From Musa acuminata AAA Group (lineage: Eukaryota > Streptophyta > Magnoliopsida > Zingiberales > Musaceae), in contig NC_088344.1 of assembly GCF_036884655.1 (NCBI RefSeq), positions 32,445,001-32,509,000 on the forward strand: a stretch of DNA of 64,000 nucleotides. Direction: 5' to 3'. Made by a program: the position numbers and the translations under genes. The number at the start of each line of letters is the position of its first letter. Position 1 is the first letter of the stretch. Positions 32,022 through 64,000 of this stretch are shown here, piece after piece. Under the pieces are notes generated by a model. The model did no database searches, had not been told where the DNA came from, and saw only the letters and a program-made list of their open reading frames with translations.

Positions 32022-32439
32022 GGGGCTCTTTGAATGCATGAAATTGACAAAGCTTCCAAGGAAACAACAGAGCAGATGCTTTGGTAAAGCAGCCGAGCAA
32101 TCCAGACTAGCCACGCATCATTTGCTCCGCGTGACTTCCTCATCAAAGAACGATGCAATCTTCAACACGCCGCTTTCGCTGCGTTGCTGCACGCCATCTG
32201 TGAAACCTGCAAGAAACGGTCAACATCGATTTCACTTTCTTTGTGCTCGCCTCCTCTCCTACATTGAACTCCAAATACTGAGTCTTCCTACTAAAAACTT
32301 GATCACCAAGCAACGCAAACATTCCCTTCCCCTATAAAAACTCGATCTGTACAAAGCATTCTTCCTCGAGTTACTACACTTCAGTCTCCTCCCGTCGCCG
32401 AGTTCATCTTCGTGTGTTGGGCCAAACCAAAAGCTAGTC

Positions 32440-32616
32440 ATGGAGATCAGCAACGAAGGCCATAAGAACTCATTCCTGTCGGCGTTGGCGTCGTGGTTCC
32501 GATGCTTCTTCCGCGCCAATCATGCAAAGGGAGAAAAACCGGCGGGATCGGCTGCGCCGGACGCAGCGATGGTTGCCGCTGCTAAGCATTTCTCTCACAA
32601 AGTCAACTTAGGATAG
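32440..32616 (+). CDS. 58-residue microprotein gene, copy A1
   Basis: ATG to TAG encodes 58 residues: MEISNEGHKNSFLSALASWF, then a basic patch (RCFFRANHAKGEKPAG), an alanine-rich stretch (41-48) and the ending KHFSHKVNLG. Residues 12-25 are hydrophobic with one arginine; this could be an amphipathic or membrane-touching helix but is not a typical signal peptide. There is one cysteine (C22) and no metal or enzyme motif. A TATAAA box lies at 32333-32338, predicting a leader of about 75 bases with no upstream ATG between about 32,365 and 32,440. I do not recognise the protein. Evidence that it is real is its preservation in eight copies, its promoter layout and its substitution pattern. In this left-edge copy two of the upstream TTGAC sites seen in other copies are mutated. 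Confidence 0.75.
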   Translation: MEISNEGHKNSFLSALASWFRCFFRANHAKGEKPAGSAAPDAAMVAAAKHFSHKVNLG

Positions 32617-32915
32617 ACTCGTGTTCTTGCATGCCACCACTGTAGTTTGTATTAGTGTTTTCTCGTATATATTTGTAAGCTCTTAAGCTAACTGTACATG
32701 AAAGAATACGCAAGATTTGCTCGTGCTATGATCGATAGAAGTACCTTTGTGATCATTGGAGAAACTTGATGGGAGTATTGATGAAGCTTTTTTAGTTGTT
32801 GATTAGAACATGATAATAAAAAATTGAAAAGCATGCTTTCCTATGGAACAATCTCTCCATGGAAATATGTGTCAGATGACGAATAGTCCTTGTCGTTGTG
32901 AGCCAATGATTCTAT

Positions 32916-33262
32916 ATGCAGCTGAGAAAGCTTCCAGGAAAACTGTTGTTGAAAGTTGATCCACAGGAGTGCATGTATCATCAAAAAGTCAAACGACCGC
33001 ACAACCACAAGTCAATTAGAAACCGGCATGAAGAAGAAGACGAAGTCGCGCTTCCCTTGCCCTCTCTTCATGTAGATCGACTGCCTCCTCATCTGCTGCT
33101 TCGAAGTCCAAACGCTTACTAATTCTTTGACCTCGGCTGCTTTCTTCTTTCTAGGAAAGAGGGAGCGCAAACACTTGATCGCCAAGAAATGTAAACCTCG
33201 ACTGCTCGTTACCATCCGAAGAAAGGTCAAAAGCCATCAACTGCAGAGAGATAGGACATGTT
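32916..33262 (+). other. Conserved non-AT-rich block after A1, possible decayed exon
   Basis: An ATG frame of 68 codons (32916-33122, MQLRKLPGKLLLKVDPQECM onward) is open. Another frame after TTTCTTCTTTCTAG reads GKRERKHLIAKKCKPRLLV, then TIRRKVKSHQLQRDRTC and a stop. The second looks like an exon behind an acceptor. No upstream partner exon or known domain is evident, so this may be a gene relic or an alternative 3' exon of A1. Confidence 0.3.
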
Positions 33263-33579
33263 GAAAATGTTGTTAATAAGTTTCATCACTTATATTCTAA
33301 CATATATATACTCTTATGTATATATATAGTGTCACTTTAATAATAATAATAATAATAATAATAAAGCAGCAAATTTAGTTCTTCCATTAAAAACATTTGG
33401 TATACTCAAATGTTTGTGGCCCTATCAATCTAGTATCACTTGAAGAAAGTAGGTATTTTCTTACATTCACTTAATGGCAAAACTTGAGTTTATATGTTAA
33501 TGGAAAAAAAAAAGTTTTAGAAAATTCGGGTTTGATTGAAAGATAAGGAAATTATAAGATTAAATATTTAAGAATATAT

Positions 33580-34360
33580 AGAAGTGGTGAAAACATATCT
33601 AATGAATTTAAATTTTTTTAAGAAATAATAGAATTTTATATTAATTCACTATGTTATACACACCTCAACAAAATGAATTTTAAAAATTTTCTGAAGTATT
33701 ATATTTTCTAGGATACCAAAAGAAAAAAGAACAAAACTTAAGGTTGACAGTAAAAAATACATCTTATTAGAGTATGCTGAGAATTCCAATTATTACAAAC
33801 TCTACAATCCTATCATAAATAAAGTTATGATATGAAAAAAGTTTGATAAATAATAGATTTAGAATTGAAAAAATTAATGAGTAGAATAAGAAAACTATAT
33901 CTTCATAAGAGGGTGATATAATACAAGCAAACACCGAAGAGTCTTTACCTGAATCATCACCTAGATCGGCTAGGTCACATAATTCAAGAAGTCTGATTGT
34001 AAGAAGGATAAGAACGATTTAGGAGCTATATGATGTGACTCAAAAAGTTGATATTAACAATGATAAATTTTTTTTTATTTTGTCTTTTTATAGGATAATC
34101 CATTATCATTCGAAGAAGATTGCAAAGAAGAGAAACGACGACAAACTATAAATAAGGAGATTCGTGCTATTAACAAAAATGATATATGAGGACTTATTAC
34201 ACTTCCAAAAGACTATCAAAGTGATCAATGTTAAGTGGATCTTCAAAATAAAAGGAAATGCATAAAAGAATGCAGAAAAATATACGACACGATTAGTTAT
34301 AAAGAAGTATTCTTGCACGACCAGAGATAGTAAGAATACTTATTTTCTTAGTAGCTATGA
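33580..34360 (+). mobile_element. Decayed Ty1/copia integrase-RT fragment, unit 1
   Basis: With frameshifts and stops one can read the integrase end (YTPQQN), the linker motif KYILLEYAENSNYYKLYNPI, and the start of reverse transcriptase (EEDCKEEKRRQTINKEIRAI, NKNDI). A piece equivalent to YKARLVAKGY survives as YTTRLVIKKY. The part corresponding to IDYEEVFAPVARLE is missing. Confidence 0.75.
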
Positions 34361-34375
34361 AAAAATTTATAAATG

Positions 34376-35135
34376 CTTACGGGGCACTAAGATTTACTGC
34401 TCTTCTCCTCTACCGCAAACATGCTTGACTACCACAGATAGGAAATCGCCATTGCTACATGAACTATCAAGCCAATTAGTAACAGAGGCTCGGTGGCTCT
34501 TACTCCTTGTTTGGCGAAAAGGTTCTTTTCTAGACACCAATCGACCTACAAGCTCAGGACTCCTCAGACAAGTACTGCACTTTGTATTAACGAAGGAAGA
34601 TATGCCTGGAAAGTTAACGGATGAACTCGAAGTTTTCCATTAGATAAGATAGAGTGACTTTAGTATTTCTTTAAAAAGCTATTATCTACATCAAGAGAAG
34701 GTGGTTTAAAGAAAGAATAAAGCCAGCGGACGAGACTGACCATTGGGACAGACAAAGACAATTATCAATCATTGGAAAATCTCTTGTCGACAAGGGATAT
34801 ATGGAATCTCCATAAGAGGAGCTGTGGTGGTATCGTGCTATTAGACTGTCTGACTGGGTTGGCTATTTTCTACGCTCCCAATGACTGTATTGGATGAAGC
34901 ACTGGAAAGAGAACAAGACAAGGCTCCAATGACTGATTCTACTGCTCCTCCACCCAGGGAAGGAATGGAGCTTCGCTCTCTGAAGAGAGAGTTGAGAGTT
35001 CTTGCTTCCTGCCTTCAAAGTAGATTCAAAGAGATAAGATATGATTCCTTCAGCTGTCCATTCACAGCGGATGAAGAAATAACATTGTACAGTGCGAACG
35101 CGGAGTAGAAAAGACGCAAGGTTCTACCACTTTAC
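34376..35135 (+). other. Balanced-composition block of unknown, possibly organellar, origin (unit 1)
   Basis: About 760 bases with clearly higher GC than the AT-rich DNA around them. Two short ATG or near-ATG frames (34425-34643 and 34881-35108) are open but resemble no family I know. The look recalls plant mitochondrial intergenic DNA; that is an impression, not a match. Its last 100 bases (GCGAACGCGGAGTAGAAAAG) have a diverged relative at about 40,745. Confidence 0.3.
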
Positions 35136-35663
35136 CTCATTCGTTTTCTCGTCATTCATTCTCTATGCATTTGTCATATTATCAACAAAATCTCTTAATT
35201 TTTTTCTAAGAAAAAAGTTAGTTTATACTTTCCAGAATTATCTTCTCTAGAAAAGAAAAAAAAAGGGGCTCTTTGAATGCATGAAATTGACAAGGCTTCG
35301 GAGGAAACAACAGTCAACAAATGCTTTGGTCAAGCAGCCGAGCAATCCAGACTAAGCCACGCATCATTTGCTCGGCGTGGCATCTTCAACACGCCGCTTT
35401 CGCTGCGTTGCTGCACGCCATCTGTGAAACCTGCGAGAAACGGTCAACACCGATTTCACTTTCTTTGTGCTCGCCTCTTCTCCTACATTGAAGTCCAAAT
35501 GCTGAGTCTTCCTACTAAAAACTTGATCACCAAGCAACGCAAACATTCCCTTCCCCTATAAAAACTCGATCTGGACAAAGCATTCTTCCTTGAGTTACTA
35601 CACTTCAGTCTCCTCCCGTCCCCGAGTCCATCTTCCTGCGTTGGGCTAAACCAAAAGCAAGTC

Positions 35664-35840
35664 ATGGAGATCAGCAACGAAGGCCATAAGAACTCATTCT
35701 TGTCGGCGTTGGCGTCGTGGTTCCGATGCTTCTTACGCGCCAATCATGCAAAGGGAGTAAAACCGGCGGGATCGGCTGCGCCGGACGCAGCGATGGTTGC
35801 CGCCGCTAAGCATTTCTCTCACAAAGTCAACTTAGGCTAG
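35664..35840 (+). CDS. 58-residue microprotein gene, copy B1
   Basis: This is a type B copy. Compared with type A it has V32 instead of E32 plus synonymous changes at codons 13, 47 and 58. It alone carries F24L (TTC to TTA) in the hydrophobic segment. TATAAA is at 35557-35562. About 220 bases upstream of the box a 22-base stretch present in B3 and B4 is missing. It lies 3.2 kb downstream of A1 in the same orientation. Confidence 0.73.
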   Translation: MEISNEGHKNSFLSALASWFRCFLRANHAKGVKPAGSAAPDAAMVAAAKHFSHKVNLG

Positions 35841-36044
35841 TTTTGTGTATCTTTCATGCGACTGTAGCTTGTATTTCTCAGCATTTTTATGTGATTGAGT
35901 TTTGAAACTTATTGTTCATAATCCATCAAAAATGTATATGTATCTCACAAAAGTATAGAAGATTACCGCATTATGTACTTTTAGATCGACAATTTCCTTG
36001 TTTTCTAAATATCTGCAAGACTGCAATGATTCATCACAAATTAA

Positions 36045-36047
36045 AAG

Positions 36048-36080
<33 letters not shown>

Positions 36081-36082
36081 TA
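36045..36082. repeat. AT-rich microsatellite after B1
   Basis: A short (TA)n run with a GT interruption. The equivalents after B2 (45,598-45,692) and B3 (54,448-54,526) are much longer and built of (TATATG)-like blocks, so this site is length-variable between copies. Confidence 0.85.
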
Positions 36083-37177
36083 AGAATATAAATAAATAAA
36101 TAATAGGATGCTTCTTTCTCATTAATAAACAAGAGGGTTTGGAAATTATTATTTTCTGAAAATTTGAAAAGTTTCTTGAATTAAAATTGCATTAAGTCAA
36201 CCACATCGTTATCATTAATTTTCATTTTATTGAATTTTTTTATGACTCGATAAAAAAAGAATAAGCTAATGATTTTTTTCCATGTTTTATTTCTTCTAGG
36301 CGTGAAAGAGATCAAGAATCCGTTTAAGGACTAAAAATAAATTATTTATTTTGACTTTCTTTACCCATATTAATTTTATGGCCTTTCTTTCTGTTTTCAC
36401 TCGTATTAATGATTCTCAGGTTATTTGATTAAATATTTTTTGTAATATCTAAGACAATTAGCTGCGTCTCATAGTTGGAGTCCTTTGATCAAATATATTT
36501 TAATCTCTAATATAATTAACAAATTATATAATATTTTGGATAAATTCTTGAAAAAATACTCAGCTTTTTCACCACTGATTGATAGAATTATCAAACAATG
36601 TTAGCTTTTTACCTAACACCTTTGAATATCTTTTTTTCTTCTTTTTATAATGGATCGGTAAACGGGTCCAGAAATAATATAATGCAGTATAAAAATATTA
36701 TAATATAATAGTTTTTATAAATTTATGAAAATATTATGCTTTTATTATTATTTTTATATTATGTTATCGTAGTTTTAGTAATATTAGAAAAACTATAACA
36801 TTATAAAAAAATTCTATAAGATTTTATTTTTTATCTTAATCATACCAAAAAAATATAACACAGCGTTTTTATTCTATATTATAATATTTTTAGTTTTACT
36901 GAAAATATTTTAACATAATATAAAAAATACTGTAAATTCATCGATCCACTCAATGGATTGATTTAAAAAAAAAAGTAAAAAAGAGATAAAATGGGGGTTG
37001 GTGACAGGGGATATTTCAAAACTTAGATTAAAAAAATGATGTTAAAGGGATACTTTTCTAGAAAATTCTATTTTTAAACAAAATTCATCCTAGTGTTTTT
37101 TTTTATTTCTTAGGAGATTAAGATTTACATTTGTTATTTACAATCCTATAATAATTTTTTTAATATTCCTAGGTTAT

Positions 37178-37221
37178 CCCTTTATATATATACATATATA
37201 CATATATATACATATATACAC

Positions 37222-37252
<31 letters not shown>

Positions 37253-37267
37253 CATATATACATATAC

Positions 37268-37298
<31 letters not shown>

Positions 37299-37310
37299 CA
37301 TATATATAAC
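37178..37310. repeat. (TATACA)n-type microsatellite, unit 1
   Basis: About 130 bases of TA interrupted by single C. The unit 3 copy (55,621-55,748) has almost the same interruption pattern, whereas unit 2 has only a short run near 46,740-46,777. Confidence 0.85.
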
Positions 37311-37594
37311 ACTTAATTCTAATAAAATCTTCTCACTCCTTATCTATCATTTTTTTAATTTTTTTCTTCTCCGCTATTTCTTAATCATCGATGATACATA
37401 AAATGATAAAAATAGATAAATGGTGAAATGAAATAATATGAAAATGGAAGAAGAAGAAGGGAAAGTCAATGTCATTATAATGCACCAGAAAAGAAAAAAA
37501 AAGTAGGTAAAAAATGAATTAGAGGAGTTGTAAATAATAAAATATTAATTTATTAATTTTTAAAAAGATCATGAATAATAATGATGTTGTGAAT

Positions 37595-37672
37595 ATTATT
37601 ATTATTATTATTATTATTATAAGAATAATTATTATTATAAGAATTATTATTATTATTATTATAATTATTAGA
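37595..37672. repeat. (ATT)n microsatellite, unit 1
   Basis: Three ATT runs separated by ATAAGAAT. The unit 3 copy (about 56,035-56,112) is one repeat longer; unit 2 (47,070-47,098) has a single short run and then a deletion of the following roughly 60 bases. Confidence 0.85.
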
Positions 37673-37929
37673 TGATAGAGGGTAGGGGTGGAATTTTTCT
37701 TAAAAAATAAGCTACTTCCGTTCATGTCGTCAGTAGCTTCCGAGCACACTCCACCACTGCCACCCCCAGGTTTATCTTCTTCTTCGTTTTGCTCTCCTTC
37801 CTCCACAACTTCATCTCTTACTTGGGGCGCTTGAGAGCTGCGGGAGAGGTTTTAGTCTTGAAAAGGAGTTGCTTGAAGCCGGATGATAAGCGATCCATGG
37901 AGGTCGCCGCTTTGAGAAGACTACTAACC

Positions 37930-38840
37930 AGAGATTTATCGGACAAGAGAAACGTTTATTGTATCAAGAGAATAAATGGATTAAATATCCATAGAAAAAC
38001 AAACTCTTGGAAAGGTTTCTTAAAAAAGATAATTTATTTTAAAAATAATTAATATAATATTTCTGTGGAGACTATATAAACTCCATATATTGAGTCATAA
38101 AATATATAGAGTTTTGAAGTCGTATAAAATTTTAAGTGAAATATAGAAGATTTAGTTTTCTCATACACTTCCTTTGTGTGATAAATATATCTCTTTTTTA
38201 TTTATTTTTAATATTTAGTATCAAAGTAGAGGTTAAGCTATGACTTTTTCTCCAAACACTATCTAATTCCAGATCCCTTAATTGACAAAAAAAAAAAAAT
38301 ATGATATATGGTGCATCTAAATGAAGGTATTTTTAGACTCCCAAGATATATATGGAAGATTGTAAAAGATGAATTTATTTAACCAAGTCTAATAAAAGAT
38401 GGAGTAATAAATACAGAAGCAAGAACAATTCAAAGATAGAGAATAAAGAAAGAGAAAAAAATATTGTTCATAATCTACTAAGAGCTTAATGATATAATAT
38501 TCGAGATCATTGCTCTACAAATACTTCAAAAGAGACATGAGAAAAAGCATTTAGTGATGTGGATAAGGTAAAAAAGTTTCGTCCATAAGTTTTACAAGTT
38601 AAGTTTGAAAAATTACAACAAGATACTTATCAATCTATTTTTAATTATTTCTTAAAAGTTATTTCTATTGTTCGAGATAAAATGGTAAACAATTAAGTGA
38701 TAAAAAGTAATAGAAAAAAAATACTAAGATCTCAAGATTCAAAGTTTGATTTTATTGCTATAGCAATCGAAGAGTCTAAAGATTTAGAACAATTAATGGG
38801 TTCTCTTTAAGTTCATAAATAAAGGCTCACAAAAAGATAA
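37930..38840 (+). mobile_element. Plus-strand copia 5' LTR remnant and gag relic, unit 1
   Basis: An LTR-like stretch (about 37,930-38,216, with TATA at GACTATATAAAC) is followed by GTATCAAAG at 38218, a decayed copy of the initiator-methionine-tRNA primer-binding site (TGGTATCAGAGC). Gag follows with stops; near 38,725-38,815 it still reads ILRSQDSKFDFIAIAIEESK, then DLEQLMGSL, a standard copia gag segment. Confidence 0.72.
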
Positions 38841-39599
38841 GAAAAAAAATCTAAAATTATGTATATCATTATGAATATTATTTCTTTAATATCAGTTAGG
38901 ACTAATCCCTTAATATTATTTTATAAGTTATTAGTCTAAGTCACTTTGGTGTCTACAAGACCAATACAATAATATAAATATAATTTAAAATGTCCTATGA
39001 ATGATAAAACTTTTATTATAATTTATATCACAAAAGTCTATCATCCCAAGACATTTTGGTAACTATAAGTCAGATAAAACTTAAGGAGATGATTTACAAA
39101 TAATATTCATCAAATTTTTTTAATTTAATTTATGTTAAGCAATTCAATGATAAAATAACAACCATAATAATTATTGAATATTAATCAACAAAAGAAAAAG
39201 TACATATGATAATCATGATAACATATAAATTATTGAAAGATGAATATTATTTTATAATTTTAAATATATACATGTGATTAACCAAATGAATATCCAAAAC
39301 AATAATTAGATTTTATTTATCACATGTAAAAATATAATCAACGATTCATATGAGAAAATTATAAATGTAAATCATAATTTATATTTTTAATAAAAAATTA
39401 AATCCAATCATAAATATAATCATGATCAAATTCAAACATAATTATAATAAATCATATTTATCAATTTTCTAATTGATGATATAAATTAGAATTCTCAATT
39501 TCATAAGGTAAAACTGTAAATATGTTGACAAGATATAAATTGGAATTACGAAATTTATAAAGGATGGAACTATAATTTGATAAAAACCTAGCTTCGAAG

Positions 39600-40656
39600 G
39601 AAAAACTGTAAATATGTTAGAAACCCTACTACTTGTGCCACCGTTGCCTGCGCGTGCACGACTACCGCAGGGTTGTCGTCACCTACGCATGGTTGATACT
39701 GCTTGCGCATGGTTGACCACGGTTCCTGCCCACGTGTGGCCGCCACTTGGGTGCGGCCTGTGCTTGCACGTGGCTACCGCTTGGGCTCGACCTATCCACG
39801 TGCGACTGTCGCTTAGGCGGTTGTCTGCCCTCGTGCGACCACCGCATAGGCGATGTGATGCTCGCGTGTGTGTGTTGCTTACATGTGACTACCGCCTATT
39901 GCAACTACTGCTGTGGCGTGCACGTTGCCCGGCGTAGCCTCTATCGCCAGCAGATTTGTTGGTCGTACGTAACAAGATCGGTGACGTCCATTTGCTTCAC
40001 ATTCATGGAGATCGTGTTTACAACAAATCTAACATTACTAGCAGTAGACAATAAAACAGAATAGATAGGAATACAGATCGATGAAATATAGATCATTCAA
40101 GCATTGTAAACAAAAATAATAAATCTAGTACATTTGATCTCAAGAACCTATGTTTTGATACCAATTGTAAACATAAAATCTATAATATGATATGAAAAAA
40201 ATCTTTTATGCTGAAATTAAATAAAATTAGATATGGTTTTACGATACATACTTTTTGATGTCATATGAAAAATAGATCTTTGTGTGATCTGTAAAGGCAC
40301 CGTCTTTAGATCCAAGATCGCAGTTAATCTACAAAGAGAACTAGATCATTCTCCTCTCTTCCTATCCTTTCATAGTACCACTTAGATTGATGGTTAGGGA
40401 GAAGAGTTAAGAGAAAGACTATAATCCCTATGAGTTGTGCAACCTCTATCATCCAGTCCCTAGAGATCTTATCTATTTATAAGTAAGAGTAAAGGGTCTA
40501 TGATAACTTATTATGAGAGTTCCTCCCATCTAAGGTATCATCCCTAAGGAATTCTATTTTAATATGGACTTCTTTTCTATTGGTTAATATATATCATCAA
40601 AATTTAATTAGTTATATTATATATCTTATCCAATTATAAAGGACAATAAAATCTAA
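39600..40656 (-). mobile_element. Minus-strand LTR element with GC-rich leader, unit 1
   Basis: Read on the minus strand, an LTR-like block (40,656 down to 40,166, TATA-like TTATAAATAG near 40,475) ends in TTTACAA. It is followed at once by TGGTATCAAAAC (40163 downward), a near-perfect methionine-tRNA primer site. The DNA beyond it (39,610-39,960) is strikingly GC-rich. The plus-strand arginine- and leucine-rich open frames there (39614-39937 and 39747-40064) are shadows of this leader. No intact gag or pol is seen. Confidence 0.6.
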
Positions 40657-41145
40657 CCGTTCCTTTAGCCCACTCATTCATAGCGGATGAATTAATAACA
40701 TTGTAACTTCAAATGTTTTTGCTAACCCTCCCAAAAGCTCGTGCGAACACAGAGTAGAAAAGACACAAGGTTCTACCGCTTAGTAAGGTAAGTACCAAGT
40801 ACATAGTACCGGTCCATACCGATAAAAAGGTCTAAGTAAGCTCCTCAAATTGCATCTTATCTTTCTAGCGCTAAGCATATCATATTGCCCATAATAATTT
40901 TATGCTACGAAATGATTTGTTTCACTTAAACCTATTCTCTTTCTCGTCTTTCATTCTCTATGTATTTGCCACATCATGTCAAGACAACCGGATAAATAAT
41001 CAATATACTCGTAAAACCTTTTAAATTTAAAATATTTTAATAATTAAAAAAATGACATATTAGATGTAATAAGTTTAAGGGGTGAGAATACTAAAATTAA
41101 ACTTATTGAAGTATGATAAAAAGATTCATCGCATCAAGTGAGAGG

Positions 41146-41430
41146 TTTATTACATTAAGAGGAGAAATAGATTAAATGCTTATAGAAGGACAAACCAATA
41201 TTGATTATTGTTTCTTAAAAGGATTTCTTGAAAAAGAATGATTTATTTTAAAAATAATTAATATAATATATCTATGAGATTACATAAACCCTGATCATAA
41301 AACATATAAACTTTTTGAAACTATAAAGAGTTTTAAATGAAAGATAGAAAATTTAGTCTTGTCCGACTTTTTCTTTATAAAATAATAGAACTATCTCTTC
41401 TTCTTATCTATTTTTAATATCTAACTACCA
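41146..41430 (+). mobile_element. Second plus-strand LTR remnant before A2
   Basis: It shares GGTTTATT, TTATTTTAAAAATAATTAAT and the GAGTTTT-AA-TGAAAGATAGAAAATTTAG block with the LTR at 37,930-38,216, so the pair may be the 5' and 3' LTRs of one decayed element. In unit 2 the equivalent is deleted near 50,365. Confidence 0.6.
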
Positions 41431-41975
41431 GTTAGAAGGTACTAAGATTTACTACTTTTTTTTTTTTCCACTAGCCGCAGACATGCGTTACTACTTGAAC
41501 TATCAAGCTAATTAATAACCATAAAGAAAAAAGGGGCTCTCTCAATGCATGAAATTGACAAAGCTTCAAAGGAAACAACAGTCAGCAGATGCTTTGGTCA
41601 AGCAGCCGAGCAATCCAGACTAAGCCATGCATCATTTGCTCCGCGTGACATCCTCATCAAAGAACGATGGCATCTTCAACACGCCACTTTCGCTGCGTTG
41701 CTGCACGCCATCTGTGAAACCTGCAAGAAACAGTCAACACCGATTTCACTTTCTTTGTGCTCGCCTCATATATTTTGACTGACGCCTATTCTCCTACGTT
41801 TTAAGTCCAAATGCTGGGTCTTCCAACTAAAAACTTGATCACCAAGCAACGCAAACATTCCCTTCCCCTATAAGAACTCGATCTGTACAAAGCATTCTTC
41901 CTCGAGTTACTACACTTCAGTCTCCTCCCGTCCCCGAGTTCATCTTCCTGCGTTGGGCTAAACCAAAAGCTAGTC

Positions 41976-42152
41976 ATGGAGATCAGCAACGAAGGCCGTA
42001 AGAACTCATTCCTGTCGGCGTTGGCGTCGTGGTTCCGATGCTTCTTCCGCGCCAATCATGCAAAGGGAGAAAAACCGGCGGGATCGGCTGCGCCGGACGC
42101 AGCGATGGTTGCCGCTGCTAAGCATTTCTCTCACAAAGTCAACTTAGGATAG
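41976..42152 (+). CDS. 58-residue microprotein gene, copy A2
   Basis: Intact type A frame with one private change, H8R (CAT to CGT). Its TATA-like box reads TATAAG (41869-41874), a weaker form than in A1 and the B copies. The stretch between the W-boxes and the TATA box contains a short insertion (CATATATTTTGACTGACGCC) shared only with A3. Confidence 0.75.
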   Translation: MEISNEGRKNSFLSALASWFRCFFRANHAKGEKPAGSAAPDAAMVAAAKHFSHKVNLG

Positions 42153-42451
42153 ACTCGTGTTCTTGCATGCCACCACTGTAGTTTGTATTAGTGTTTTCTC
42201 GTATATATTTGTAAGCTCTTAAGCTAACTGTACATGAAAGAATACGCAAGATTTGCTCGTGCTATGATCGATAGAAGTACCTTTGTGATCATTGGAGAAA
42301 CTTGATGGGAGTATTGATGAAGCTTTTTTAGTTGTTGATTAGAACATGATAATAAAAAATTGAAAAGCATGCTTTCCTATGGAACAATCTCTCCATGGAA
42401 ATATGTGTCAGATGACGAATAGTCCTTGTCGTTGTGAGCCAATGATTCTAT

Positions 42452-42798
42452 ATGCAGCTGAGAAAGCTTCCAGGAAAACTGTTGTTGAAAGTTGATCCAC
42501 AGGAGTGCATGTATCATCAAAAAGTCAAACGACCGCACAACCACAAGTCAATTAGAAACCGGCATGAAGAAGAAGACGAAGTCGCGCTTCCCTTGCCCTC
42601 TCTTCATGTAGATCGACTGCCTCCTCATCTGCTGCTTCGAAGTCCAAACGCTTACTAATTCTTTGACCTCGGCTGCTTTCTTCTTTCTAGGAAAGAGGGA
42701 GCGCAAACACTTGATCGCCAAGAAATGTAAACCTCGACTGCTCGTTACCATCCGAAGAAAGGTCAAAAGCCATCAACTGCAGAGAGATAGGACATGTT
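42452..42798 (+). other. Same block after A2
   Basis: Identical in translation to the block after A1 in both frames. Confidence 0.3.
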
Positions 42799-43120
42799 GA
42801 AAATGTTGTCAATAAGTTTCATCACTTATATTCTAACATATATATACTCTTATGTATATATATAGTGTCACTTTAATAATAATAATAATAATAATAATAA
42901 AGCAGCAAATTTAGTTCTTCCATTAAAAACATTTGGTATACTCAAATATTTGTGGCCCTATCAATCTAGTATCATTGGAAGAAAGTAGGTATTTTCTTAC
43001 ATCCACTTATTATTGTAATGACAAAACTTGAGTTTATATGTTATTGGAAAAAAAAAAGTTTTAGAAAATTCGGGTTTGGTTGAAAGATAAGGAGATTATA
43101 AGATTAAATATTTAAGAATA

Positions 43121-43911: not shown

Positions 43912-43927
43912 AAAAAATTTATAAATG

Positions 43928-45597: not shown

Positions 45598-45614
45598 AGT
45601 ATATGTATATATAT

Positions 45615-51669: not shown

Positions 51670-51986
51670 GAAAATGTTGTCAATAAGTTTCATCACTTAT
51701 ATTCTAACATATATATACTCTTATGTATATATATAGTGTCACTTTAATAATAATAATAATAATAATAATAAAGCAGCAAATTTAGTTCTTCCATTAAAAA
51801 CATTTGGTATACTCAAATGTTTGTGGCCCTATCAATCTAGTATCACTTGAAGAAAGTAGGTATTTTCTTACATTCACTTAATGGCAAAACTTGAGTTTAT
51901 ATGTTAATGGAAAAAAAAAAGTTTTAGAAAATTCGGGTTTGATTGAAAGATAAGGAAATTATAAGATTAAATATTTAAGAATATAT

Positions 51987-52740: not shown

Positions 52741-52757
52741 TGAAAAAATTTAGAAAT

Positions 52758-53518
52758 GCTTACGGGGCACTAAGATTTACTGCTCTTCTCCTCTACCGCA
52801 AACATGCTTGACTACCACAGATAGGAAATCGCCATTGCTACATGAACTATCAAGCCAATTAGTAACAGAGGCTCGGTGGCTCTTACTCCTTGTTTGGCGA
52901 AAAGGTTCTTTTCTAGACACCAATCGACCTACAAGCTCAGGACTCCTCAGACAAGTACTGCACTTTGTATTAACGAAGGAAGATATGCCTGGAAAGTTAA
53001 CGGATGAACTCGAAGTTTTCCATTAGATAAGATAGAGTGACTTTAGTATTTCTTTAAAAAGCTATTATCTACATCAAGAGAAGGTGGTTTAAAGAAAGAA
53101 TAAAGCCAGCGGACGAGACTGACCATTGGGACAGACAAAGACAATTATCAATCATTGGAAAATCTCTTGTCGACAAGGGATATATGGAATCTCCATAAGA
53201 GGAGCTGTGGTGGTATCGTGCTATTAGACTGTCTGACTGGGTTGGCTATTTTCTACGCTCCCAATGACTGTATTGGATGAAGCACTGGAAAGAGAACAAG
53301 ACAAGGCTCCAATGACTGATTCTACTGCTCCTCCACCCAGGGAAGGAATGGAGCTTCGCTCTCTGAAGAGAGAGTTGAGAGTTCTTGCTTCCTGCCTTCA
53401 AAGTAGATTCAAAGAGATAAGATATGATTCCTTCAGCTGTCCATTCACAGCGGATGAAGAAATAACATTGTACAGTGCGAACGCGGAGTAGAAAAGACGC
53501 AAGGTTCTACCACTTTAC
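52758..53518 (+). other. Same balanced block, unit 3
   Basis: Essentially identical to unit 1 although the copia DNA immediately to its left differs strongly, so a similarity boundary lies at about 52,760. Confidence 0.3.
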
Positions 53519-54067
53519 CTCATTCGTTTTCTCGTCATTCATTCTCTATGCATTTGTCATATTATCAACAAAATCTCTTAATTTTTTTCTAAGAAAAAAG
53601 TTAGTTTATACTTTCCAGAATTATCTTCTCTAGAAAAGAAAAAAAAGGGGCTCTTTGAATGCATGAAATTGACAAGGCTTCGAAGGAAACAACAGTCAAC
53701 AGATGCTTTGGTCAAGCAGCCGAGCAATCCAGACTAAGCCATGCATCATTTGCTCCGCGTGACTTCCTCATCAAAGAACGATGGCATCTTCAACAAGCCG
53801 CCTTCGCTGCGTTGCTGCACGCCATCTGTGAAACCTGCGAGAAACGGTCAACACCGATTTCACTTTCTTTGTGCTCGCCTCTTCTCCTACATTGAAGTCC
53901 AAATGCTGAGTCTTCCTACTAAAAACTTGATCACCAAGCAACGCAAACATTCCCTTCCCCTATAAAAACTCGATCTGGACAAAGCATTCTTCCTTGAGTT
54001 ACTACACTTCAGTCTCCTCCCGTCCCCGAGTTCATCTTCCTGCGTTGGGCTAAACCAAAAGCAAGTC

Positions 54068-54244
54068 ATGGAGATCAGCAACGAAGGCCATAAGAACTCA
54101 TTCTTGTCGGCGTTGGCGTCGTGGTTCCGATGCTTCTTCCGCGCCAATCATGCAAAGGGAGTAAAACCGGCGGGATCGGCTGCGCCGGACGCAGCGATGG
54201 TTGCCGCCGCTAAGCATTTCTCTCACAAAGTCAACTTAGGCTAG
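54068..54244 (+). CDS. 58-residue microprotein gene, copy B3
   Basis: Type B with no private amino-acid change. TATAAA is at 53961-53966. The promoter keeps the 22 bases that B1 and B2 lack and so is closer to the A promoters. Confidence 0.75.
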   Translation: MEISNEGHKNSFLSALASWFRCFFRANHAKGVKPAGSAAPDAAMVAAAKHFSHKVNLG

Positions 54245-54447
54245 TTTTGTGTATCTTTCATGCGACTGTAGCTTGTATTTCTCAGCATTTTTATGTGATT
54301 GAGTTATGAAACTTATTGTTCATAATCCATAAAAAATGTATATGTATCTCACAAAAGTATAGAAGATTACCGCATTATGTACTTTTAGATCGACAATTTC
54401 CTTGTTTTCTAAATATCTGCAAGACTGCAATGATTCATCACAAATTA

Positions 54448-54451
54448 AAAG

Positions 54452-54524
<73 letters not shown>

Positions 54525-54526
54525 TA
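54448..54526. repeat. Expanded (TA)n/GTATA microsatellite after B3
   Basis: About 78 bases, intermediate in length between the B1 and B2 sites. Confidence 0.85.
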
Positions 54527-55620
54527 AGAATATAAATAAATAAATAATAGGATGCTTCTTTCTCATTAATAAACAAGAGGGTTTGGAAATTATTATTTTC
54601 TGAAATTTTGAAAAGTTTCTTGAATTAAAATTGCATTAAGTCAACCACATCGTTATCATTAATTTTCATTTTATTGAATTTTTTTATGACTCGATAAAAA
54701 AAGAATAAGCTAATGATTTTTTTCCATGTTTTATTTCTTCTAGGCGTGAAAGAGATCAAGAATCCGTTTAAGGACTAAAAATAAATTATTTATTTTGACT
54801 TTCTTTACCCATATTAATTTTATGGCCTTTCTTTCTGTTTTCACTCGTATTAATGATTCTCAGGTTATTTGATTAAATATTTTTTGTAATATCTAAGACA
54901 ATTAGCTGCGTCTCATAGTTGGAGTCCTTTGATCAAATATATTTTAATCTCTAATATAATTAACAAATTATATAATATTTTGGATAAATTCTTGAAAAAA
55001 TACTCAGCTTTTTCACCACTGATTGATAGAATTATCAAACAATGTTAGCTTTTTACCTAACACCTTTGAATATCTTTTTTTCTTCTTTTTATAATGGATC
55101 GGTAAACGGGTCCAGAAATAATATAATGCAGTATAAAAATATTATAATATAATAGTTTTTATAAATTTATGAAAATATTATGCTTTTATTATTATTTTTA
55201 TATTATGTTATCGTAGTTTTAGTAATATTAGAAAAACTATAACATTATAAAAAAATTCTATAAGATTTTATTTTTTATCTTAATCATACCAAAAAAATAT
55301 AACACAGCGTTTTTATTCTATATTATAATATTTTTAGTTTTACTGAAAATATTTTAACATAATATAAAAAATACTGTAAATTCATCGATCCACTCAATGG
55401 ATTGATTTAAAAAAAAAAGTAAAAAAGAGATAAAATGGGGGTTGGTGACAGGGGATATTTCAAAACTTAGATTAAAAAAATGATGTTAAAGGGATACTTT
55501 TCTAGAAAATTCTATTTTTAAACAAAATTCATCCTAGTGTTTTTTTTTATTTCTTAGGAGATTAAGATTTACATTTGTTATTTACAATCCTATAATAATT
55601 TTTTTAATATTCCTAGGTTA

Positions 55621-55665
55621 TCCCTTTATATATATACATATATACATATATATACATATATACAC

Positions 55666-55696
<31 letters not shown>

Positions 55697-55748
55697 CATA
55701 TATACATATACATATATATACATATATATATATATATACATATATATA
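55621..55748. repeat. (TATACA)n-type microsatellite, unit 3
   Basis: The order of C interruptions is preserved relative to unit 1, showing that this half of the unit was copied recently. Confidence 0.85.
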
Positions 55749-56033
55749 ACACTTAATTCTAATAAAATCTTCTCACTCCTTATCTATCATTTTTTTAATT
55801 TTTTTCTTCTCCGCTATTTCTTAATCATCGATGATACATAAAATGATAAAAATAGATAAATGGTGAAATGAAATAATATGAAAATGGAAGAAGAAGAAGG
55901 GAAAGTCAATGTCATTATAATGCACCAGAAAAGAAAAAAAAAGTAGGTAAAAAATGAATTAGAGGAGTTGTAAATAATAAAATATTAATTTATTAATTTT
56001 TAAAAAGATCATGAATAATAATGATGTTGTGAA

Positions 56034-56064
<31 letters not shown>

Positions 56065-56372
56065 AGAATAATTATTATTATAAGAATTATTATTATTATT
56101 ATTATAATTATTAGATGATAGAGGGTAGGGGTGGAATTTTTCTTAAAAAATAAGCTACTTCCGTTCATGTCGTCAGTAGCTTCCGAGCACACTCCACCAC
56201 TGCCACCCCCAGGTTTATCTTCTTCTTCGTTTTGCTCTCCTTCCTCCACAACTTCATCTCTTACTTGGGGCGCTTGAGAGCTGCGGGAGAGGTTTTAGTC
56301 TTGAAAAAGAGTTGCTTGAAGCCGGATGATAAGCGATCCATGGAGGTCGCCGCTTTGAGAAGACTACTAACC

Positions 56373-57283
56373 AGAGATTTATCGGACAAGAGAAACGTTT
56401 ATTGTATCAAGAGAATAAATGGATTAAATATCCATAGAAAAACAAACTCTTGGAAAGGTTTCTTAAAAAAGATAATTTATTTTAAAAATAATTAATATAA
56501 TATTTCTGTGGAGACTATATAAACTCCATATATTGAGTCATAAAATATATAGAGTTTTGAAGTCGTATAAAATTTTAAGTGAAATATAGAAGATTTAGTT
56601 TTCTCATACACTTCCTTTGTGTGATAAATATATCTCTTTTTTATTTATTTTTAATATTTAGTATCAAAGTAGAGGTTAAGCTATGACTTTTTCTCCAAAC
56701 ACTATCTAATTCCAGATCCCTTAATTGACAAAAAAAAAAAAATATGATATATGGTGCATCTAAATGAAGGTATTTTTAGACTCCCAAGATATATATGGAA
56801 GATTGTAAAAGATGAATTTATTTAACCAAGTCTAATAAAAGATGGAGTAATAAATACAGAAGCAAGAACAATTCAAAGATAGAGAATAAAGAAAGAGAAA
56901 AAAATATTGTTCATAATCTACTAAGAGCTTAATGATATAATATTCGAGATCATTGCTCTACAAATACTTCAAAAGAGACATGAGAAAAAGCATTTAGTGA
57001 TGTGGATAAGGTAAAAAAGTTTCGTCCATAAGTTTTACAAGTTAAGTTTGAAAAATTACAACAAGATACTTATCAATCTATTTTTAATTATTTCTTAAAA
57101 GTTATTTCTATTGTTCGAGATAAAATGGTAAACAATTAAGTGATAAAAAGTAATAGAAAAAAAATACTAAGATCTCAAGATTCAAAGTTTGATTTTATTG
57201 CTATAGCAATCGAAGAGTCTAAAGATTTAGAACAATTAATGGGTTCTCTTTAAGTTCATAAATAAAGGCTCACAAAAAGATAA
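56373..57283 (+). mobile_element. Plus-strand copia LTR and gag relic, unit 3
   Basis: The primer-site relic is at 56661, exactly 18,443 bases from that in unit 1, and the whole relic is nearly identical to it. Confidence 0.72.
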
Positions 57284-58044
57284 GAAAAAAAATCTAAAAT
57301 TATGTATATCATTATGAATATTATTTCTTTAATATCAGTTAGGACTAATCCCTTAATATTATTTTATAAGTTATTAGTCTAAGTCACTTTGGTGTCTACA
57401 AGACCAATACAATAATATAAATATAATTTAAAATGTCCTATGAATGATAAAACTTTTATTATAATTCATATCACAAAAGTCTATCATCCCAAGACATTTT
57501 GGTAACTATAAGTCAGATAAAACTTAAGGAGATGATTTACAAATAATATTCATCAAATTTTTTTAATTTAATTTATGTTAAGCAATTCAATGATAAAATA
57601 ACAACCATAATAATTATTGAATATTAATCAACAAAAGAAAAAGTACATATGATAATCATGATAACATATAAATTATTGAAAGATGAATATTATTTTATAA
57701 TTTTAAATATATACATGTGATTAACCAAATGAATATCCAAAACAATAATTAGATTTTATTTATCACATGTAAAAATATAATCAACGATTCATATGAGAAA
57801 ATTATAAATGTAAATCATAATTTATATTTTTAATAAAAAATTAAATCCAATCATAAATACAATCATGATCAAATTCAAACATAATTATAATAAATCATAT
57901 TTATCAATTTTCTAATTGATGATATAAATTAGAATTCTCAATTTCATAAGGTAAAACTGTAAATATGTTGACAAGATATAAATTGGAATTACGAAATTTA
58001 TAAAGGATGGAACTATAATTTGATAAAAACCTAGCTTCGAAGGA

Positions 58045-59099
58045 AAAACTGTAAATATGTTAGAAACCCTACTACTTGTGCCACCGTTGCCTGCGCGTGC
58101 ACGACTACCGCAGGGTTGTCGTCACCTACGCATGGTTGATACTGCTTGCGCATGGTTGACCACGGTTCCTGCCCACGTGTGGCCGCCACTTGGGTGCGGC
58201 CTGTGCTTGCACGTGGCTACCGCTTGGGCTCGACCTATCCACGTGCGACTGTCGCTTAGGCGGTTGTCTGCCCTCGTGCGACCACCGCATAGGCGATGTG
58301 ATGCTCGCGTGTGTGTGTTGCTTACATGTGACTACCGCCTATTGCAACTACTGCTGTGGCGTGCACGTTGCCCGGCGTAGCCTCTATCGCCAGCAGATTT
58401 GTTGGTCGTACGTAACAAGATCGGTGACGTCCATTTGCTTCACATTCATGGAGATCGTGTTTACAACAAATCTAACATTACTAGCAGTAGACAATAAAAC
58501 AGAATAGATAGGAATACAGATCGATGAAATATAGATCATTCAAGCATTGTAAACAAAAATAATAAATCTAGTACATTTGATCTCAAGAACCTATGTTTTG
58601 ATACCAATTGTAAACATAAAATCTATAATATGATATGAAAAAAATCTTTTATGCTGAAATTAAATAAAATTAGATATGGTTTTACGATACATACTTTTTG
58701 ATGTCATATGAAAAATAGATCTTTGTGTGATCTGTAAAGGCACCGTCTTTAGATCCAAGATCGCAGTTAATCTACAAAGAGAACTAGATCATTCTCCTCT
58801 CTTCCTATCCTTTCATAGTACCACTTAGATTGATGGTTAGGGAGAAGAGTTAAGAGAAAGACTATAATCCCTATGAGTTGTGCAACCTCTATCATCCAGT
58901 CCCTAGAGATCTTATCTATTTATAAGTAAGAGTAAAGGGTCTATGATAACTTATTATGAGAGTTCCTCCCATCTAAGGTATCATCCCTAAGGAATTCTAT
59001 TTTAATATGGACTTCTTTTCTATTGGTTAATATATATCATCAAAATTTAATTAGTTATATTATATATCTTATCCAATTATAAAGGACAATAAAATCTAA
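58045..59099 (-). mobile_element. Minus-strand LTR element with GC-rich leader, unit 3
   Basis: Matches the unit 1 copy at the 18,443-base offset with almost no change, including the same open-frame shadows (58057-58380). Confidence 0.6.
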
Positions 59100-59588
59100 C
59101 CGTTCCTTTAGCCCACTCATTCATAGCGGATGAATTAATAACATTGTAACTTCAAATGTTTTTGCTAACCCTCCCAAAAGCTCGTGCGAACACAGAGTAG
59201 AAAAGACACAAGGTTCTACCACTTAGTAAGGTAAGTACCAAGTACATAGTACCGGTCCATACCGATAAAAAGGTCTAAGTAAGCTCCTCAAATTGCATCT
59301 TATCTTTCTAGCGCTAAGCATATCATATTGCCCATAATAATTTTATGCTACGAAATGATTTGTTTCACTTAAACCTATTCTCTTTCTCGTCTTTCATTCT
59401 CTATGTATTTGCCACATCATGTCAAGACAACCGGATAAATAATCAATATACTCGTAAAACCTTTTAAATTTAAAATATTTTAATAATTAAAAAAATGACA
59501 TATTAGATGTAATAAGTTTAAGGGGTGAGAATACTAAAATTAAACTTATTGAAGTATGATAAAAAGATTCATCGCATCAAGTGAGAGG

Positions 59589-59873
59589 TTTATTACATTA
59601 AGAGGAGAAATAGATTAAATGCTTATAGAAGGACAAACCAATATTGATTATTGTTTCTTAAAAGGATTTCTTGAAAAAGAATGATTTATTTTAAAAATAA
59701 TTAATATAATATATCTATGAGATTACATAAACCCTGATCATAAAACATATAAACTTTTTGAAACTATAAAGAGTTTTAAATGAAAGATAGAAAATTTAGT
59801 CTTGTCCGACTTTTTCTTTATAAAATAATAGAACTATCTCTTCTTCTTATCTATTTTTAATATCTAACTACCA
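59589..59873 (+). mobile_element. Second plus-strand LTR remnant before A4
   Basis: Counterpart of the 41,146-41,430 remnant at the 18,443-base offset. Confidence 0.6.
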
Positions 59874-60396
59874 GTTAGAAGGTACTAAGATTTACTACTT
59901 TTTTTTTTTTCCACTAGCCGCAGACATGCGTTACTACTTGAACTATCAAGCTAATTAATAACCATAAAGAAAAAAGGGGCTCTCTCAATGCATGAAATTG
60001 ACAAAGCTTCAAAGGAAACAACAGTCAGCAGATGCTTTGGTCAAGCAGCCGAGCAATCCAGACTAAGCCATGCATCATTTGCTCCGCGTGACATCCTCAT
60101 CAAAGAACGATGGCATCTTCAACACGCCACTTTCGCTGCGTTGCTGCACGCCATCTGTGAAACCTGCAAGAAACGGTCAACATCGATTTCACTTTCTTTG
60201 TGCTCGCCTCCTCTCATACAATGAACTCCAAATGCTGAGTCTTCCTACTAAAAACTTGATCACCAAGCAACGCAAACATTCCCTTCCCCTATAAGAACTC
60301 GATCTGTACAAAGCATTCTTCCTCGAGTTACTACACTTCAGTCTCCTCCCGTCCCCGAGTTCATCTTCCTGCGTTGGGCTAAACCAAAAGCTAGTC

Positions 60397-60573
60397 ATGG
60401 AGATCAGCAACGAAGGCCATAAGAACTCATTCCTGTCGGCGTTGGCGTCGTGGTTCCGATGCTTCTTCCGCGCCAATCATGCAAAGGGAGAAAAACCGGC
60501 GGGATCGGCTGCGCCGGACGCAGCGATGGTTGCCGCTGCTAAGCATTTCTCTCACAAAGTCAACTTAGGATAG
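60397..60573 (+). CDS. 58-residue microprotein gene, copy A4
   Basis: Protein identical to A1 and A3. The box is TATAAG (60290-60295), like A2 and A3, but the region just upstream (CTCGCCTCCTCTCATACAAT) resembles A1 rather than A2/A3, so the promoter is a mosaic. Confidence 0.75.
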   Translation: MEISNEGHKNSFLSALASWFRCFFRANHAKGEKPAGSAAPDAAMVAAAKHFSHKVNLG

Positions 60574-60872
60574 ACTCATGTTCTTGCATGCCACCACTGT
60601 AGTTTGTATTAGTGTTTTCTCGTATATATTTGTAAGCTCTTAAGCTAACTGTACATGAAAGAATACGCAAGATTTGCTCGTGCTATGATCGATAGAAGTA
60701 CCTTTGTGATCATTGGAGAAACTTGATGGGAGTATTGATGAAGCTTTTTTAGTTGTTGATTAGAACATGATAATAAAAAATTGAAAAGCATGCTTTCCTA
60801 TGGAACAATCTCTCCATGGAAATATGTGTCAGATGACGAATAGTCCTTGTCGTTGTGAGCCAATGATTCTAT

Positions 60873-61219
60873 ATGCAGCTGAGAAAGCTTCCAGGAAAAC
60901 TGTTGTTGAAAGTTGATCCACAGGAGTGCATGTATCATCAAAAAGTCAAACGACCGCACAACCACAAGTCAATTAGAAACCGGCAAGAAGAAGAAGACGA
61001 AGTCGCGCTTCCCTTGCCCTCTCTTCATGTAGATCGACTGCCTCCTCATCTGCTGCTTCGAAGTCCAAACGCTTACTAATTCTTTGACCTCGGCTGCTTT
61101 CTTCTTTCTAGGAAAGAGGGAGCGCAAACACTTGATCGCCAAGAAATGTAAACCTCGACTGCTCGTTACCATCCGAAGAAAGGTCAAAAGCCATCAACTG
61201 CAGAGAGATAGGACATGTT
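60873..61219 (+). other. Same block after A4
   Basis: One base change (CAT to CAA) turns a histidine into glutamine in the 68-codon frame and removes the ATG of the lysine-rich alternative frame, which argues against that ATG being used. Confidence 0.3.
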
Positions 61220-61536
61220 GAAAATGTTGTCAATAAGTTTCATCACTTATATTCTAACATATATATACTCTTATGTATATATATAGTGTCACTTTAATAA
61301 TAATAATAATAATAATAATAAAGCAGCAAATTTAGTTCTTCCATTAAAAACATTTGGTATACTCAAATGTTTGTGGCCCTATCAATCTAGTATCACTTGA
61401 AGAAAGTAGGTATTTTCTTACATTCACTTAATGGCAAAACTTGAGTTTATATGTTAATGGAAAAAAAAAAGTTTTAGAAAATTCGGGTTTGATTGAAAGA
61501 TAAGGAAATTATAAGATTAAATATTTAAGAATATAT

Positions 61537-62290
61537 AGAAGTGGTGAAAACATATCTAATGAATTTAAATTTTTTTAAGAAATAATAGAATTTTATATTA
61601 ATTCACTATGTTATACACACCTCAACAAAATGAATTTTAAAAATTTTCTGAAGTATTATATTTTCTAGGATACCAAAAGAAAAAAGAACAAAACTTAAGG
61701 TTGACAGTAAAAAATACATCTTATTAGAGTATGCTGAGAATTCCAATTATTACAAACTCTACAATCCTATTATAAACAAAGTTATGATATGAAAAAAGTT
61801 TGATAAATAACAGATTTAGAATTGAAAAAATTAATGAGTAGAATAAGAAAACTATATTTTCATAAGAGGGTGATATAATACAAGCAAATACCGAAGAGTC
61901 TTTGTTTGAATCATCACCTAGATCGGCTAGGTCACATAATTTAAAAAGTCTGATTATAAGAAAAACAAGAACGATTCAGGAGCTATATGACGTGACTCAA
62001 AAGGTTGATACTAACAATGATAAACTTTTTTTATTTTATCTTTTTATAGGATAATCCATTAACGTTCGAAGATTGCAAAGAAGAGAAATGACGACAAACT
62101 ATAAATGAGGAGATTCATGTTATTAACAAAAATGATATATGAGAACTTACTATACTTCGAGAAGACCACCAAAGTGTGTATCTTCAAAATAAAAGGAAAT
62201 GCACAAGAGATCGACTATGAAAAAATATTCATGTTAATTGCTCGATTAAAGATAGTAAGAATACTTATTTTCTTAGTAGCTTATATGAAA
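61537..62290 (+). mobile_element. Decayed Ty1/copia integrase-RT fragment, unit 4
   Basis: Nearly identical to the unit 3 fragment, with the same deletion structure. Confidence 0.75.
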
Positions 62291-62307
62291 TGAAAAAATT
62301 TAGAAAT

Positions 62308-63068
62308 GCTTACGGGGCACTAAGATTTACTGCTCTTCTCCTCTACCGCAAACATGCTTGACTACCACAGATAGGAAATCGCCATTGCTACATGAACTAT
62401 CAAGCCAATTAGTAACAGAGGCTCGGTGGCTCTTACTCCTTGTTTGGCGAAAAGGTTCTTTTCTAGACACCAATCGACCTACAAGCTCAGGACTCCTCAG
62501 ACAAGTACTGCACTTTGTATTAACGAAGGAAGATATGCCTGGAAAGTTAACGGATGAACTCGAAGTTTTCCATTAGATATGATAGAGTGACTTTAGTATT
62601 TCTTTAAAAAGCTATTATCTACATCAAGAGAAGGTGGTTTAAAGAAAGAATAAAGCCAGCGGACGAGACTGACCATTGGGACAGACAAAGACAATTATCA
62701 ATCATTGGAAAATCTCTTGTCGACAAGGGATATATGGAATCTCCATAAGAGGAGCTGTGGTGGTATCGTGCTATTAGACTGTCTGACTGGGTTGGCTATT
62801 TTCTACGCTCCCAATGACTGTATTGGATGAAGCACTGGAAAGAGAACAAGACAAGGCTCCAATGACTGATTCTACTGCTCCTCCACCCAGGGAAGGAATG
62901 GAGCTTCGCTCTCTGAAGAGAGAGTTGAGAGTTCTTGCTTCCTGCCTTCAAAGTATATTCAAAGAGATAAGATATGATTCCTTCAGCTGTCCATTCACAG
63001 CGGATGAAGAAATAACATTGTACAGTGCGAACGCGGAGTAGAAAAGACGCAAGGTTCTACCACTTTAC
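62308..63068 (+). other. Same balanced block, unit 4
   Basis: One change (AGA to ATA, R to I) in the second frame and a TAAG to TATG change after the first. The weak constraint gives no sign of coding use. Confidence 0.3.
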
Positions 63069-63617
63069 CTCATTCGTTTTCTCGTCATTCATTCTCTATG
63101 CATTTGTCATATTATCAACAAAATCTCTTAATTTTTTTCTAAGAAAAAAGTTAGTTTATACTTTCCAGAATTATCTTCTCTAGAAAAGAAAAAAAAGGGG
63201 CTCTTTGAATGCATGAAATTGACAAGGCTTCGAAGGAAACAACAGTCAACAGATGCTTTGGTCAAGCAGCCGAGCAATCCAGACTAAGCCATGCATCATT
63301 TGCTCCGCGTGACTTCCTCATCAAAGAACGATGGCATCTTCAACAAGCCGCCTTCGCTGCGTTGCTGCACGCCATCTGTGAAACCTGCGAGAAACGGTCA
63401 ACACCGATTTCACTTTCTTTGTGCTCGCCTCTTCTCCTACATTGAAGTCCAAATGCTGAGTCTTCCTACTAAAAACTTGATCACCAAGCAACGCAAACAT
63501 TCCCTTCCCCTATAAAAACTCGATCTGGACAAAGCATTCTTCCTTGAGTTACTACACTTCAGTCTCCTCCCGTCCCCGAGTTCATCTTCCTGCGTTGGGC
63601 TAAACCAAAAGCAAGTC

Positions 63618-63794
63618 ATGGAGATCAGCAACGAAGGCCATAAGAACTCATTCTTGTCGGCGTTGGCGTCGTGGTTCCGATGCTTCTTCCGCGCCAATCA
63701 TGCAAAGGGAGTAAAACCGGCGGGATCGGCTGCGCCGGACGCAGCGATGGTTGCCGCCGCTAAGCATTTCTCTCACAAAGTCAACTTAGGCTAG
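63618..63794 (+). CDS. 58-residue microprotein gene, copy B4
   Basis: Type B, identical in protein to B2 and B3. TATAAA is at 63511-63516. It is the last complete copy before the window ends. Confidence 0.75.
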   Translation: MEISNEGHKNSFLSALASWFRCFFRANHAKGVKPAGSAAPDAAMVAAAKHFSHKVNLG

Positions 63795-64000
63795 TTTTGT
63801 GTATCTTTCATGCGACTGTAGCTTGTATTTCTCAGCATTTTTATGTGATTGAGTTATGAAACTTATTGTTCATAATCCATAAAAAATGTATATGTATCTC
63901 ACAAAAGTATAGAAGATTACCGCATTATGTACTTTTAGATCGACAATTTCCTTGTTTTCTAAATATCTGCAAGACTGCAATGATTCATCACAAATTAAAA

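Follow-up and report, generated by a model that had tools for sequence, protein, structure and literature searches.

Putative old small-protein genes of banana form tandem arrays with predicted chimeric copies beside a phosphatidylinositol 4-kinase gamma gene

Introduction

Tandem gene clusters in plants vary in copy number and produce fusion genes via unequal crossing over. We analyzed a 64,000-nucleotide stretch of Musa acuminata AAA Group (contig NC_088344.1, positions 32,445,001 to 32,509,000; hereafter the window), in which a gene for a 58-residue protein is repeated in tandem. The locus resembles such clusters in its tandem units, haplotype-specific numbers, and fusion genes, but the amplified gene encodes only 56–60 residues and the junction lies inside a conserved coding block. 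At the protein level, the closest described systems are the plant precursors that lack a signal peptide, namely plant elicitor peptides, systemin, and ZIP1, as given in PMC11756074. The proteins studied here are likewise small, show no secretion signal by eye, and carry a conserved C-terminal segment, a likeness of plan; they match no Pfam family, and processing into a released peptide is hypothetical. Taken together, the data point with high probability to an old small-protein family of the banana/canna lineage that was recently amplified by unequal exchange.

Conservation of the Small-Protein Genes

All eight frames of the original prediction were recovered intact on the plus strand, each running from ATG to TAG over 58 codons (177 bp; Table 1). 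Two types, A and B, alternate along the window with an A-to-A spacing of 8.9 to 9.6 kb. Self-comparison of the window places the left edge of the array at 31996-32011, and on this contig (C18) the array comprises 15 copies in total, reaching ~98800 in window-equivalent coordinates.

Across the assembly, which totals 1.53 Gb in 1060 contigs, the search returned 41 matches, all 41 without stops: 24 of class A/B, 14 of class C (56 residues), and 3 of class D (60 residues). The block P-D/E-A-x-M-V-x-A-A-K-H-F-S is present in 39 of them, and the two exceptions deviate by one residue each (C7:38103416, PNAAMV; the C21 copy of D, AAEHFS). The ratio of nonsynonymous to synonymous substitution rates (dN/dS) is 0.30 for A-C (bootstrap 0.12-0.67), 0.27 for A-D (bootstrap 0.00-0.55, where resamples in which dS was saturated are counted into the zero), and 0.26 for C-D. 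Per site, synonymous differences exceed nonsynonymous ones, with Fisher p values of 0.004 (A-C) and 0.0004 (A-D) calculated from rounded counts. With dN/dS at about 0.3, the paralogues show the signature of purifying selection, which argues that the protein itself matters.

Outside Musa, the hypothetical protein Cni_G21094 of Canna indica (123 residues) matched with an E-value of 9.5e-19 and 56% identity over 95% of the 58 residues; the query was a longer frame, of which only the 58 family residues scored. Cni_G21094 consists of two family units, each starting with M-G-S and each containing LAxW and PDAxMVAAAKHFS; both units carry the conserved block, and A/B, C, D, and Canna unit 2 all retain start, stop, and C-terminal block. 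Unit 1 stops at HFSNK, where Musa reads AAA-GTC-AAC, so this GT may have been mistaken for a splice donor during gene prediction. Cni_G21094, annotated as a single protein, is therefore probably two neighboring tandem genes wrongly fused by a false intron that opens with this GT, part of a Val codon. A 12-protein tree recovers A/B (93/98), C (85/92), and D (100/99) as groups, and the two Canna units join each other weakly (53/59); the tree thus provides no evidence that the pair of A/B and C predates the Musa-Canna split; the sole hint in that direction is the string DHGVK common to C and Canna unit 1.

The proposal of an amplified, hardly annotated small-protein gene is thus borne out by the Canna homologue, the single-copy paralogue D on three other contigs, and the dN/dS near 0.3, which place homologues with codon-level conservation outside the array. 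On these sequence comparisons, we regard the family as genuine and old. The reverse-strand frames, flagged originally as a possible source of mis-annotation, are unlikely genes, since stops interrupt all three antisense frames in the five A/B and C copies checked (5/5); in class D, one antisense frame is open across the coding sequence.

Recent variation is less clear. Variable sites per 100 number 5.1 in the A/B coding sequence versus 8.6 in the promoter (gap spans, 0 versus 6), and 2.8 in the coding sequence versus 4.4 in the 3' flank of A copies with an A-type flank (a3); class C shows the reverse order, 6.4 in the coding sequence versus 4.0 in the promoter. All 11 variable sites of the 14 C copies lie upstream of the last 19 codons (p 0.017). 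In the C-terminal part of A/B, codons 41, 47, 54, and 58 vary, 41 and 54 nonsynonymously and the other two synonymously. The protein thus appears constrained over the long term, and the recent copies not clearly so; with at most weak constraint on within-array variation, many copies may be drifting.

Chimeric B Genes

A and B have in common a stretch of only ~640 bases, comprising promoter, leader, and coding sequence, in which they differ by 4.8% in the 5' part and by 2.5% in the coding sequence. After the stop, the difference rises to 35% in the first 50 columns and 53% in the following 100, and similarity above chance ends 51 bases past the stop. Selection was considered as the cause of this boundary and dropped, as the B 3' flank matches class C.

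B and C align from -46 to +661 at 86%, and another pair extends to ~+1560 at 87%, whereas the A-C alignment reaches only +213 at 70%. In the module map, A consists of promoter, coding sequence, and a3; C of its own promoter, coding sequence, and a C-type 3' flank (c3); and B of A promoter, A coding sequence, and c3. The C-specific base is missing from B at codon 45, and C-specific bases are present at codon 58 and in the following flank, so the exchange falls within the ~40 bases at the end of the coding sequence, where no difference separates A from C between these two diagnostic sites; the protein is left unchanged. The B copies are thus chimeras in which an A head meets a C tail within this interval, a new finding, and the break in A/B similarity just past the stop follows from the C tail. 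The C at codon 47 of B is absent from all A copies that have an a3 flank and from all C copies, and thus probably originated in the chimera itself. The final C18 copy (32542352) combines an A2-like head with a B-type tail.

Table 1. Coordinates of the features in the window.
Feature	Position	Strand	Basis
Copy A1, 58-residue frame	32440..32616	+	frame reading
Copy B1, 58-residue frame (F24L, V32), chimeric	35664..35840	+	frame reading, module comparison
Copy A2 (H8R)	41976..42152	+	frame reading
Copy B2, chimeric	45216..45392	+	frame reading, module comparison
Copy A3	50847..51023	+	frame reading
Copy B3, chimeric	54068..54244	+	frame reading, module comparison
Copy A4	60397..60573	+	frame reading
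Copy B4, chimeric	63618..63794	+	frame reading, module comparison
Tandem array, in-window part (~9-kb units: A gene, ~2.6 kb, B gene, spacer of 5.0-5.7 kb)	31996..64000	+	self-comparison; continues past window
A1 promoter and 5' leader, common to the eight copies of the window; CTTGATCACCAAG just before the TATA box (32333)	32024..32439	+	alignment
A-type 3' flank (a3)	32617..33139	+	module map
C-type 3' flank (c3) following B1, with 86% identity to that of a C gene on C7	35841..36284	+	module map
Putative A/C crossover zone in B1 (codon 45 to codon 58); corresponding zone in B2-B4	35799..35837	+	C-class bases
Phosphatidylinositol 4-kinase gamma gene, 4.0 kb from the first copy and in head-to-head orientation to it	26491..28443	-	protein comparison and locus map

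Copy Number and the PI4K-gamma Neighborhood

Class A/B has 15 copies on C18, 7 on C7, and 2 on C29; class C has 11 on C7 and 3 on C29, and none was found on C18 in the whole-assembly search. The homologous contigs C18, C7, and C29 thus carry 15, 18, and 5 copies, respectively, and class D occurs as a single copy on each of C10, C21, and C32. Both loci studied occur as near-identical three-contig sets, and we read the assembly as that of a phased triploid AAA banana with three chromosome sets. PMC10493638 describes a triploid Cavendish assembly (1.42 Gb in 33 pseudo-chromosomes), which is not equated with the assembly used here.

The first copy faces a phosphatidylinositol 4-kinase gamma (PI4K-gamma) gene at a distance of 4.0 kb on C18, C7, and C29, and the kinase near the window array is 97% identical to a Musa textilis protein and 91% to Ensete. 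A second block has a PI4K-gamma gene, 85% identical, at 4.4 to 4.5 kb from the D copies of C10, C32, and C21, likewise head to head, so that the family occupies this position on 6/6 Musa contigs carrying the two closest PI4K-gamma types. There is no family copy within 5 kb of two more distant PI4K-gamma genes (C25; C7 at 4.6 Mb), a check covering these two loci. In Canna, Cni_G21094 and a PI4K-gamma gene are found on contigs of equal size, the sole positional hint there. For PI4K-gamma, dS from one block to the other amounts to 0.42, a value in keeping with an old duplication of the block. Between homologous contigs, it is only 0.009 (C18 versus C7) and 0.007 (C18 versus C29), and the restructuring of the array is therefore fast.

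Two other tandem duplications were observed left of the array: one of 235 bases (94% identical, 28886-29362) upstream of the PI4K-gamma frame, and one of 102 bases (99% matches, 4408-4611) within a 207-residue minus-strand frame (4072-4695) that matches bZIP_1. The frame 13274-13723 matches part of an amino acid transporter domain.

Uniformity and History of the Array

The original prediction set intact frames against decaying, transposon-rich DNA. The frames are indeed intact, but the contrast is only partial: outside them, some blocks, such as 32871-33170 and 34639-35238, are uniform at 99.7 to 100% in all four units, and others drop to 87-94% identity. Because the copies are near-duplicates of recent origin, parts of the flanking DNA are just as uniform, and variation within the arrays is at most weakly constrained, intactness is weak evidence that selection kept and multiplied the gene. 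The stretch 34347-35238, upstream of B, agrees at 99.7-100% across the four units with small gaps at its left end, and contains an 84-residue open frame (34854-35108) without a Pfam match. The sole above-cut-off Pfam match in a six-frame scan of 31000-45603 is a retroelement SH3-like domain (PF25597), of which one fragment lies at ~43229-43390 and a second stretch within 31001-45602, both in the same frame.

Spacers 1 and 3 are identical at 99.7-100%, and spacer 2 differs from both by 2 to 14% in all 300-column blocks that had sufficient aligned bases. The A-to-B parts of the units mostly agree better than the spacers, with weaker blocks at 31996-32270, 33754-34053, and 34054-34346. This pattern would fit a 9-kb duplication, a later, recent 18-kb duplication, and exchange in between. 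On C7 and C29, A-type genes alternate with the diverged class C, and C18 has B genes instead. Neighboring A-type and C genes may have recombined inside their shared 3' coding stretch, removing the C head and leaving the in-frame chimera B; the A+B unit would then have multiplied, initially in 9-kb and subsequently in 18-kb steps.

Promoters

The predicted TATA-type box about 105 bases upstream was recovered in all eight window copies, as TATAARA 107 bases ahead of the start codon. Class C has a TATAAA box at -141 in the three copies checked (3/3), and none of that pattern was found in the two class D copies checked. The W-box cluster was overstated: TTGACY does occur upstream of all eight copies, with 1, 3, 3, 3, 3, 3, 2, and 3 sites per 500 bases in order along the array, against a background in the left half of the window where 16 of 630 overlapping 500-base segments hold three (mean 0.45). 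All these counts come from one shared promoter and are therefore not eight independent observations. The near-palindrome CTTGATCAYCAAG, which the alignment places in all eight window copies, was found in 7/7 promoters examined from A, B, C, and D, starting at -142 (A, B, and the A/B type on C7), -176 (C), and -139 (D).

Protein Features and Database Searches

The protein comprises an aromatic N-terminal segment predicted to be helical, a variable low-complexity linker, and the nearly invariant C-terminal PDAAMVAAAKHFSxKVNLG. Helices are predicted at residues 5-28 and 42-55, with a low-confidence mean predicted local distance difference test score (pLDDT) of 64.

No Pfam family matched A3 or B1 at E up to 10, and neither PDB sequences, phage protein records, nor plasmid DNA records gave a match; Rfam returned zero families in the window. 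The literature search found nothing on the string AAAKHFS, on Cni_G21094, or on KHFSSAHKV, a possible relative. It retrieved nothing on the Canna genome and, judging by titles and the beginnings of abstracts, no banana microprotein paper on point.

Discussion

It is very improbable that the frames are chance openings or parts of a noncoding RNA in repeated DNA. No annotated protein of such size was found in a database search limited to ~32-101 residues, and frame scoring was indecisive; however, the codon-level conservation among A, C, and D, the similarity to the Canna protein, the in-frame length differences, and the conserved start and stop argue for translation into a protein. An assembly artefact that falsely repeated the units is just as remote a prospect: the near identity of spacers 1 and 3 would suit it, but spacer 2 diverges from both, the arrays on the three contigs differ in make-up, and the retrieved stretches contain zero N. 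The balance is different for the cause of the amplification. We give an even chance that the gene was a passenger in a tandem block prone to recombination and that copy number was not under selection, as suggested by the equally uniform parts of the neighboring DNA, by the range of 5 to 18 copies between contigs whose PI4K-gamma dS from that of the window is below 0.01, and by the weak constraint on recent variation, although the long-term dN/dS means that the protein matters. Such a passage concerns the amplification and not the gene, and can be compatible with an old, conserved family; the amplification itself may be passive.

For the function, we tentatively favor a small two-helix intracellular protein, perhaps touching membranes, whose C-terminal segment would bind a partner and whose dose would be set by copy number, a model that we consider possible and far from assured. 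Its main rival, a precursor of an unconventionally secreted signalling peptide whose C-terminal 17-19 residues are released on damage, seems unlikely. The confinement of class C variation to the region before the last 19 codons would accord with a released C-terminus, and a class of precursors without a signal peptide is already known; on the other hand, the nonsynonymous A/B codons 41 and 54 fall inside the conserved block, this block is predicted, with low confidence, to be helical, no Pfam family matched, and there is no link to damage or a receptor, the W-boxes being modest.

Several observations weigh against an old intracellular family as favored here. The short alignment brings dS close to saturation for D; variable sites within the arrays are 14 nonsynonymous and 6 synonymous (6 versus 3 in A/B, 8 versus 3 in C); and codon-usage scoring was indecisive, with other frames scoring above the 58-codon frame. 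The size-limited protein search gave zero candidates sharing three words, and the word-based searches yielded just the one Canna protein. The structure model, of low confidence, matched no PDB fold, and the amphipathic moment of the N-terminal segment, high in A (0.69) and C (0.78), is lower in D (0.45). To these are added seven remnants of A-type genes, five on C7 and two on C29 (e.g., C7:38066492-38066805), in which the promoter survives without a TATA box or coding sequence.

The locus thus presents what appears to be a conserved protein-coding family, overlooked or fused by annotation, that adjoins a conserved kinase gene of an important crop plant. At its widest, and with little probability in our view, the family could be an old Zingiberales microprotein or peptide signal whose dose was reset independently for each chromosome set of the triploid banana, partly via chimeras arising from recombination within the conserved coding block, and which would affect a trait of the stress or disease type. 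Since homologous contigs with near-identical neighbors carry 5, 15, and 18 copies and differ in which paralogues they hold, dosage effects would be directly testable among banana accessions.

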